Below, in pieces: positions 33,159 through 34,918 of a DNA stretch of 64,000 nucleotides (positions within the stretch are counted from its first letter, which is position 1; each line of letters begins with the position of its first letter). Below the pieces are notes generated by a model. The model worked only from the letters and a program-made list of their open reading frames with translations, had not been told where the DNA came from and did not search any database. Source of the DNA: an uncultured Clostridia bacterium. GTDB taxonomy: Bacteria > Bacillota > Clostridia > Christensenellales > CAG-917. The DNA lies in contig CANQNC010000002.1 of NCBI GenBank assembly GCA_947625145.1, positions 50,616 through 114,615 of the forward strand. Reading direction: 5' to 3'. A program made the translations under genes and the position numbers.

Positions 33159-33353
33159 ATGATTTCAAAAGATATGCTGATCGTTGACATTCTCGAACAG
33201 GGCGATTCCGAAAAACTCGCCGAAGTCCTTATGGAAAGCGGTATGCATTGCCTGCATTGCGCCCTCGCTCACGGCGAAACGCTCGAGCAAGCCGCCGCGG
33301 TGCATGGGATAGACGTGGATGAGTTGGTCTCCAAACTCAACTCCGTCCTGTAA
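33159..33353 (+). CDS. DUF1858 domain protein
   Basis: MISKDMLIVDILEQGDSEKLAEVLMESGMHCLHCALAHGETLEQAAAVHGIDVDELVSKLNSVL matches the DUF1858 pattern with the CxxC-like 'HCLHC' signature. Confidence 0.85.
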   Translation: MISKDMLIVDILEQGDSEKLAEVLMESGMHCLHCALAHGETLEQAAAVHGIDVDELVSKLNSVL

Positions 33354-33477
33354 AACCGCACTATTTGACGCTATGCGTTGTCAACAGCCCTATCCCTCGC
33401 CGTCGTGTACTTCATGTACACTAGGCGGCTCGTGATAGGGCTGTTTCCTAGCCTAGCATTCAAATATTGCGGTTTTA
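33351..33477. repeat. Palindromic intergenic element, copy A (127 bp)
   Basis: Imperfect terminal inverted repeats TAAAACCGCACTATTTGACGCTA / TAGCATTCAAATATTGCGGTTTTA. Inner perfect stem ACAGCCCTATC/GATAGGGCTGT (33384-33394/33434-33444). Core hairpin GTGTAC-TTCAT-GTACAC. Confidence 0.85.
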
Positions 33478-33711
33478 CCTTTCACTATTATATTTACGTT
33501 GACATCATATCCTCTCCACTCGCACTATTTGACGCTAGGGGTTTAACTTTATTAAAACGTTTCAGTTTGTGAGGGATTTTCGTATCCGCTTAAAAAGCTA
33601 AATATTTTCATTGTGTGGATTTAATTTTGACGTTTTGATTTTCACTTTTTGGGGTTGCACTTATAAATGTATCCGCATTTATTCGCTCAAAAACCACATA
33701 AATATATTATG

Positions 33712-33815
33712 TAAAACGGCGATATTGAGATGAAGAGCAAGGAAAAGCCCATTTTGCGAACCGCCAAATGTACACTTAGTACATGACTTGGCAGACGAGA
33801 GTTGTTCGCCCGTAT
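33712..33815. repeat. Palindromic intergenic element, copy B (degenerate right end)
   Basis: Left end TAAAACGGC. Shares GATGAAGAGCAAGGAA and the 34-bp core GCCAAATGTACACTTAGTACATGACTTGGCAGAC with copy C, then TTCGCCCGTA. No matching right terminal arm. Confidence 0.7.
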
Positions 33816-33831
33816 CAATAATAATATATTT

Positions 33832-33855
33832 GTAAAACCGCAATATTTGGATGCT
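33832..33855. repeat. Orphan terminal arm of the same element family
   Basis: TAAAACCGCAATATTTGGATGCTA is the near-perfect reverse complement of the right arm of copy A (33454-33477). Confidence 0.7.
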
Positions 33856-33929
33856 AGTTGGTTATAACGCATAGCGCCGCGTGTGAGGGGATAAGGTATG
33901 ATGATACAAAATCAAAATATAAGGACGTG

Positions 33930-34057
33930 TAAAACCGCCTGTACGGGATGAAGAGCAAGGAAGCGCCCCCTGAATGACAAGCCAAATGTACACTTAGTAC
34001 ATGACTTGGCAGACAGGGGGGCGCTGACGCAGCTATTCGCCCGTACAGGCGGTTTTA
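33930..34057. repeat. Palindromic intergenic element, copy C (128 bp, intact)
   Basis: Perfect 18-bp terminal inverted repeat TAAAACCGCCTGTACGGG (33930-33947) / CCCGTACAGGCGGTTTTA (34040-34057). Inner stem AGCGCCCCCTG/CAGGGGGGCGCT. Core hairpin GCCAA..ATGTAC-ACTTA-GTACAT..TTGGC. Confidence 0.9.
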
Positions 34058-34918
34058 CCTGAAGAGTTTGAGGGTGTGGGAAATAACGGACCCCTCAATA
34101 AACTCCGCGCCGAAGATCTCGCCGTCCGCTTCGAAGCGGCTGTCATCCAGCACTTCTATGCGCACGGTTTTGCCCTCGAAAACCTCTGTGTAGTCCTTTT
34201 TCACATGCTTTGCGGAGAGGAAGCCGGGGAGCTCGATGGGGATACGGCTCTTTTTCATCTCGTTGACCACGACTATGCTCAGCTTGCCGTCGTCCACAAC
34301 GCCGCCCGGGCAGATGGGGATCCCGCCGCCGATGCTTTTGCCGTTGCCGATGCCTATCATAAACACGCTTCTTTCCATTGGCTCGCCGTCGTCTATCGTA
34401 AGGCGCAATTTGTGCCACTTCGGATGCGCCAGCACATAGAACAGCGCAAGATAATATCCTATCTTTCCGCCGCCCTTTTCGGCGTGCCGCAAAAGGACAT
34501 CCACGTCCATTCCCGCGCCCAGCACGTTCAGACAGCGGCGGTCGTTGAGCTGTATGAAGTCCACATACTGTTCGTTGCCTTTCAAAATCAGCTCCACCGC
34601 TTTTTTCACGTCCTTCGGGTGCCCCGAGGCTGTCACAAAGTCGTTGCCCGTGCCGCAGGGGATAAGCCCCATCGTGACGTTTTCAAAGTTCTGTATGCCG
34701 TTCAAGACCTCGTTGAACGAGCCGTCCCCGCCAAGCACAAGCAGTTTGACGTCGGGGGAGGCGGAAAGCTCCTTCGCGATTTCGGTCGCGTGACCTTTGC
34801 GCTCGGTTTTGTGCACTTCGTAGGTCGCTCCCGCTTCGGCGAGCATGCGCTCCACCACCTTCAAAGCCTTCAGACTTTTGCCTTTGCCGCCCATTGGATT
34901 TACGATAATATGATACAT
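34055..34918 (-). CDS. YegS/diacylglycerol-kinase-family lipid kinase
   Basis: 'IVNPMGGKGKS', 'LLVLGGDGSFNEVLNGI' and 'GLIPCGTGNDFV' are the hallmark DAGK catalytic-domain motifs. Confidence 0.9.
   Translation of the reverse strand: MYHIIVNPMGGKGKSLKALKVVERMLAEAGATYEVHKTERKGHATEIAKELSASPDVKLLVLGGDGSFNEVLNGIQNFENVTMGLIPCGTGNDFVTASGHPKDVKKAVELILKGNEQYVDFIQLNDRRCLNVLGAGMDVDVLLRHAEKGGGKIGYYLALFYVLAHPKWHKLRLTIDDGEPMERSVFMIGIGNGKSIGGGIPICPGGVVDDGKLSIVVVNEMKKSRIPIELPGFLSAKHVKKDYTEVFEGKTVRIEVLDDSRFEADGEIFGAEFIEGSVISHTLKLFR

Follow-up and report, generated by a model that had tools for sequence, protein, structure and literature searches.

The convergent ends of two neighbouring genes of an uncultured Clostridia bacterium (contig CANQNC010000002.1, assembly GCA_947625145.1) each carry a copy of a long hairpin that is best explained as a whole, and in our assessment probably though not securely, as a non-autonomous mobile element of approximately 127 bp that belongs to the ERIC superfamily and acts as mRNA 3' end and bidirectional terminator. 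Its identity as a clostridial member of the ERIC superfamily, taken alone, is held with high confidence; the role in 3'-end formation or termination was inferred without transcript data and is given an even chance. The hairpin itself, the covariation of its stems, its position at stop codons, its fixed sense orientation, its multiplication within genomes, its presence or absence at orthologous genes, and its likeness to ERIC were all demonstrated.

ERIC sequences have been known since 1990-91 and are the source of the name ERIC-PCR typing, and to our knowledge it has not been established how they move, while their role has been explored only in part. A 2024 review places ERIC in Enterobacteriaceae and Vibrionaceae (PMC10969869), and no earlier report of relatives in Bacillota was found in a literature search that lacked most of the subscription papers on ERIC. 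The present analysis extends the family to about a tenth of the sampled Bacillota genomes and to some proteobacterial gut MAGs, and offers a clean system, with a predictive model, in a genus of gut Clostridia whose genomes carry as many as 83 well-preserved copies, nearly all of them at stop codons, in one orientation and with strong covariation. Moreover, the data suggest that an ERIC-type family often marks gene ends.

Hairpin copies in the window and in the source genome

The stretch of DNA that was analysed (64,000 nucleotides; the window) contains two full copies of the element, both with the terminal inverted repeats TAAAACCGC/GCGGTTTTA. Copy A (33351-33477, + strand, 127 bp) lies sense with a DUF1858 gene of 64 aa (33159-33353, + strand; family confirmed, PF08984), of which the stop codon is the first TAA of the element (33351-33353). 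Copy C (33930-34057, - strand, 128 bp) lies sense with the convergent gene of a 287-aa YegS/Rv2252/BmrU-type lipid kinase (34055-34918, - strand; family confirmed, TIGR00147), and its first TAA (34055-34057, minus strand) is likewise the stop codon of that gene. The initial annotation had placed both copies, their terminal repeats and the two stop codons exactly here, and the palindromic family of about 128 bp that it proposed is real, A and C being full copies of a hairpin family of about 127 bp. Both copies are strongly folded, with predicted folding energies of about -69 to -76 kcal/mol and z about -11 on either strand. The covariance model, of which the training set includes both copies, scored A at 127.7 bits on the + strand versus 55.3 on the - strand, and C at 127.6 bits on the - strand versus 54.3 on the + strand. 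The core of A had been described as an inverted version, an appearance explained by the opposite orientation of the copies, because every element is oriented like the gene at whose end it lies.

A third copy, B, had also been assigned to the family. Its apical core is identical to that of C, but as an element it is decayed: the model gave it only 26.3 bits (33712-33831, - strand), and its whole-copy fold was neither stable nor significant (z -1.1). It belongs to the array on the YegS side, where an internally deleted remnant of a further element (33832-33880, - strand, end approximate) retains only an outer stem of the CTATTTGG type and forms inverted pairs with copy A. Behind copy A, a linker, CTTTCACTAT...CTCTCCACT (33478-33520, + strand, end approximate), which is also found behind lead hairpins elsewhere in the genome, is followed by the remnant of an older unit, CGCACTATTTGACGCTA... 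(33521-33545, + strand, end approximate), that lacks the TAAAAC foot and may extend over approximately 33510-33545. The remnants at about 33832-33880 and 33510-33545 had no place in the first reading. Elsewhere in the window, positions 2962-30411 (+ strand) form a single ORF of 9149 codons with a lipoprotein-like start, by appearance a giant surface protein.

Many other copies are present in the source genome, with approximately 30 clusters detected by BLAST and pattern searches and 73 copies by the genus covariance model. For the reading of these copies, the stretches around the clusters were used rather than the whole genome. The lead palindromes are near-constant in length (126-128 bp, and 129 bp at GAPDH), and in 18 of 25 tabulated lead copies the stop codon is located at offset 0, the others ranging between -10 and +15. 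The genes that they end are mostly housekeeping genes, including those for GyrA, GMP synthase, PNPase, Mfd, PfkA, fructose-bisphosphate aldolase, GlgD, MnmA, AsnRS, ThrRS, and a MreB-like protein. The genes for GAPDH and Obg, identified from the C-termini of their products, also end in lead copies and served for the ortholog searches. In many clusters the lead hairpin is followed by a linker of approximately 43 nt and by older, truncated or internally deleted units, and in the clusters that were read the intact unit is the one that adjoins the gene. These arrays lead to the inference, without direct observation, that a new unit inserts at the stop codon and displaces its predecessors away from the gene. 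Several older array units (clusters L079, L080, L071, and L086) additionally contain a second, shorter palindrome (CCCCATSAAAACGCTACGCRTTTTGATGGGG and variants), which has the appearance of a separate repeat family that inserted into the first one.

Stop-codon register, fold and turnover within the genus

According to the genus model, the element occurs in 18 of 20 species, with a maximum of 83 copies in G001 and none in G013 and G019. Stop-codon distances were tabulated for 83 copies from 15 other species, and in 64 of them an ORF of at least 80 codons had its stop within 3 nt of the first base of the element on the sense side, versus only 2 of 83 on the opposite side. A random oriented position would meet this criterion in 0.84% of cases (binomial p about 1e-115, treating copies as independent although some are related), and the link with stop codons proposed in the initial annotation is thereby borne out. 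The element thus occupies an intergenic position directly behind stop codons, its transcription being inferred only. A co-directional gene starting within 50 nt behind the hairpin was found in 2 of 51 cases, compared to 55 of 203 genes without the element, a comparison that rests on crude ORF picks. The sample comprised one genome per species, from draft assemblies with repeats at contig ends, and the E-values are rough.

The family spans 125-130 bp and consists of one long imperfect palindrome with an A/T base, a variable outer stem, a conserved internal loop, a variable middle stem, and a conserved apical GTCA-YGTAC-loop-GTACR hairpin. In an alignment of 25 diverse copies, 41 base pairs were recognised with 93.5% of the cells paired; this measure is biased towards the structure, which had been derived from that very alignment, but slid controls remained far below it at 35-47% paired. 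The covariation score was 0.597 versus 0.176 +/- 0.013 in shuffled alignments, and the compensatory stem changes, the absence of which would have spoken against the initial annotation, were two-sided in 33 of the 41 pairs. Of the eight pairs without two-sided change, four are A-U (three close to the base, the fourth at the foot of the middle stem), three belong to the apical hairpin, and the last is a C-G pair with two unpaired cells as its sole departure. The unpaired motifs GTCA, TTTC, and CATC are strongly conserved, and loops, apex, and A/U base hardly vary. This pattern is that of a structure read by something, and not of a sequence repeat alone. Outside the element, the outer flanking bases are complementary in 29 of 55 cases, versus 17 expected from base frequencies.

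Comparison of orthologous gene ends revealed that copies come and go at a locus. At GAPDH, nine species carry the element directly at the stop codon with stem sequences that differ between them, and the readable species without it have a short terminator-like hairpin in that place. At obg, only the source genome carries the element among the ortholog ends that were read, and orthologs without it have an ordinary terminator-like hairpin at the same place; six ends remained unread, one of which, in G002, does carry the element. Two species share evidently related GAPDH copies (L187 in G001 and L193 in G005) in which the stem has been kept through paired changes. In these two GAPDH 3' ends the 5' arm could also fold into a small hairpin of its own, GCGACCTG...CAGGTCGCTTTTTTT, followed by seven T; this would be an alternative, terminator-like fold within the larger one. 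A model in which the outer stem would be a host terminator that received the inner hairpin as an insertion into its loop was rejected, as outer stems are shared among loci of one genome and are unlike the terminators of the orthologs.

Relatives outside the genus and the probable relation to ERIC

A class-wide search of other Clostridia detected relatives that are full-length and have the same loops and apex, some of them in rRNA operon spacers or beside tRNA genes, and in a phylum sample 41 of 399 Bacillota genomes gave a match at E <= 1e-4. The stop-codon rule is not universal, because relatives elsewhere in Bacillota lie in rRNA or tRNA spacers or away from stop codons. For example, L202, L209, L213, L215, L388, and L392 are located in rRNA operon spacers (16S-23S, before 23S, 23S-5S) and in or beside tRNA clusters, and some genomes may have such a relative in each of their rRNA operons. 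Two proteobacterial gut MAGs, one labelled Alphaproteobacteria, also contain full-length relatives; of 15 copies there, 10 begin no more than 7 nt from the stop codon of a sense-oriented ORF with 250 codons or more.

The element is assigned to an ERIC superfamily by its single long imperfect palindrome of approximately 127 bp, its apex, and a common profile of sequence and structure. A covariance model built from copies of Clostridia and proteobacterial MAGs, without any ERIC in its training set (R2), recovered 12 of 13 ERIC loci in the right place and on the right strand, with E-values of 3e-6 to 0.01, and matched nothing else in 46.6 kb; the 13 loci were taken from records of E. coli, Klebsiella, Citrobacter, Rahnella, and Salmonella. 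The scores of R2 on ERIC were modest (18-31 bits), and the genus-only model (R1) did not reach ERIC. The printed ERIC/RU-1 consensus has the same length as the element and the same apex at the same position (PMC2759123). ERIC, Bacillota, and proteobacterial MAG copies share the apical hairpin TCA..TAY-loop-RTA..CTCC at about position 52-55, of which the copies in the window carry a variant in the 3' half (GTACACTAGG / GTACATTTGG). Moreover, Bacillota copies outside the training set share the CTGCGTTGGCT and CGCCGCCTTG loops of ERIC, and one of them, L383, reads CTGCGTTGGCT ... TCACGTAC..GTACGCTCC ... CGCCGCCTTG and is closer still to ERIC (alignment z 4.4). Among the enteric ERIC loci, 6 of the 13 distinct ones (at ybhI, cusC, potI, ffh, a Rahnella cupin gene, and a Rahnella ABC transporter gene) either overlap the stop codon of a sense-oriented gene at their start or begin at most approximately 6 nt after it. 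The termini of the element are TA, which does not by itself demonstrate the TA target-site duplication of ERIC. The relation to ERIC did not figure in the interpretation given by the initial annotation.

The gammaproteobacterial MAG JABDBD01 contains high-copy palindromes of 125-127 bp (L106, L124, L130, L141, and L148) with GTAC apices, embedded in longer inverted flanks, GGCAGTTGAAATCTCG. The genus model scored these at 40-48 bits, a level also reached by an apparently unrelated Bacteroidota palindrome (42 bits, L111), and R2 scored two of them at 18-19 bits, so that they are possibly distant relatives and possibly independent, a choice that is left open. No relevant match was obtained with the curated covariance models of Rfam (E up to 10 and 1, and gathering thresholds), and the 'Skipping-rope' RNA gave no match, nor did other Rfam RNAs. 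A consensus-like query found nothing in phage or plasmid collections.

Spread of the element and its proposed role at gene ends

A mobile hairpin that comes to form the 3' end of the gene behind which it settles agrees with the data, and the mobile palindrome and the transcript-end structure that had been offered as alternative readings are both supported and do not exclude each other, terminator activity being an inference. In the proposed mechanism, new copies would settle beside a stop codon while older ones decay behind, and a hairpin once placed there would become the 3' end of that mRNA. Its 5' foot would consist of UAA and the A-tract and its 3' foot of a GC-rich stem with four or five U behind it, so that transcription could be terminated whether it arrives from the gene or from the other side. 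The 5' foot would lie under the terminating ribosome and the hairpin would form after the ribosome has left; the long interior would put the U-tract approximately 120 nt behind the stop codon, with the last ribosome already gone. In E. coli, the terminating ribosome represses a terminator that follows a stop codon at a distance of only a few nt, and this repression is relieved beyond approximately 27-30 nt (PMC4824070). A role as terminator is favoured by the scarcity of downstream co-directional genes, the invariant A-U base, and the ordinary terminator-like hairpins found in the same place at GAPDH and obg orthologs that lack the element, and the predicted form, a GC-rich stem followed by UUUU, fits an intrinsic terminator. 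Against it, the T-runs are short (4-5), and in a scan of the window terminator-like matches were no commoner than in shuffles.

The same arrays with decayed older units, the widely differing copy numbers between species (0 to 83), and the sharing of copies within a genome would also be expected of a purely selfish MITE, in line with the standing of ERIC as a MITE (PMC2229807, PMC10969869); its machinery would prefer transcribed 3' ends, the hairpin would be useless to the host, and the fold would be kept for recognition by the machinery. We consider this possible but unlikely. The exact stop-codon register and the single orientation, which are the strangest part of the data, are difficult to reconcile with simple DNA targeting of a near-palindrome, and the related GAPDH copies keep their stem through paired changes.

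The strongly conserved loops and apex, for which a terminator has no need, together with the fixed sense orientation, could instead reflect an RNA element that is read by a trans-acting nuclease or RNA-binding protein and that sets mRNA stability without being a terminator. Effects of ERIC on upstream transcripts have been reported, in Yersinia via RNase E (PMC2229807, PMC10969869). However, the avoidance of operon-internal positions and the replaced terminator-like hairpins at orthologs point to 3'-end formation, and this reading, taken as a substitute for the terminator, appears quite improbable. The two roles can coexist, and by analogy an RNase E-type effect on mRNA may be an alternative or added role. 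An integron attC-like site, a REP mobilised by a Y1 (RAYT) transposase, and a retroelement origin are largely refuted already and were rejected as hardly tenable, although the gene-end position and structure-led conservation recall attC and the extragenic palindromic character recalls REP. The ends of the element, GTAAAAC/GTTTTAC, do not match the attC boxes RYYYAAC/GTTRRRY, neither Y1_Tnp (PF01797) nor reverse transcriptase was found in the three genomes with most copies (G000, G001, and G005), and the one tyrosine recombinase that was tested is Xer-like (63 bits with the integron integrase model versus a cut-off of 265), recombinases also occurring where the element is absent (G013). The element is regarded as a non-autonomous mobile hairpin, and no mobilising enzyme was identified. 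As a tentative and rather speculative extension of the preferred reading of a mobile 3' end, ERIC might represent one branch of an old, phylum-spanning superfamily of hairpins of which the spread is tied to translation stop codons; such hairpins would be mobile 3'-end modules inserted through some unidentified mechanism linked to transcripts or to translation, instead of by DNA-sequence targeting.

Among known systems, ordinary bidirectional intrinsic terminators resemble the element in having an A-tract, a GC-rich stem, and a U-tract on both sides, and a short terminator-like hairpin takes the same position in related species; in contrast to the element, they are short, lack conserved loops and a constant length, and have not spread as a family. 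RUP and BOX/SPRITE of pneumococcus, Correia/NEMIS, and REP/BIME are similarly intergenic, palindromic, high-copy, clustering, and nesting, but none of them has been described with an exact stop-codon register (PMC10969869, PMC2229807), and REP needs a Y1 transposase, which the richest element-carrying genomes lack. The closest counterpart is ERIC (IRU, RU-1), with 127 bp, one long imperfect hairpin, and T-A at the ends, and with the apex TCA-NTTAC-N4-GTAAG-CTCC at the same position as TCAYGTAC..GTACRCTCC in the element; a Klebsiella ERIC copy even reads TCACGTAC..GTACGCTCC at its apex. The element differs from ERIC in its host phylum, Bacillota, in outer and middle stem sequences that are unrelated to those of ERIC and freely variable, in its arrays of older units, and in the stop-codon start and single orientation of nearly all copies in the genus.
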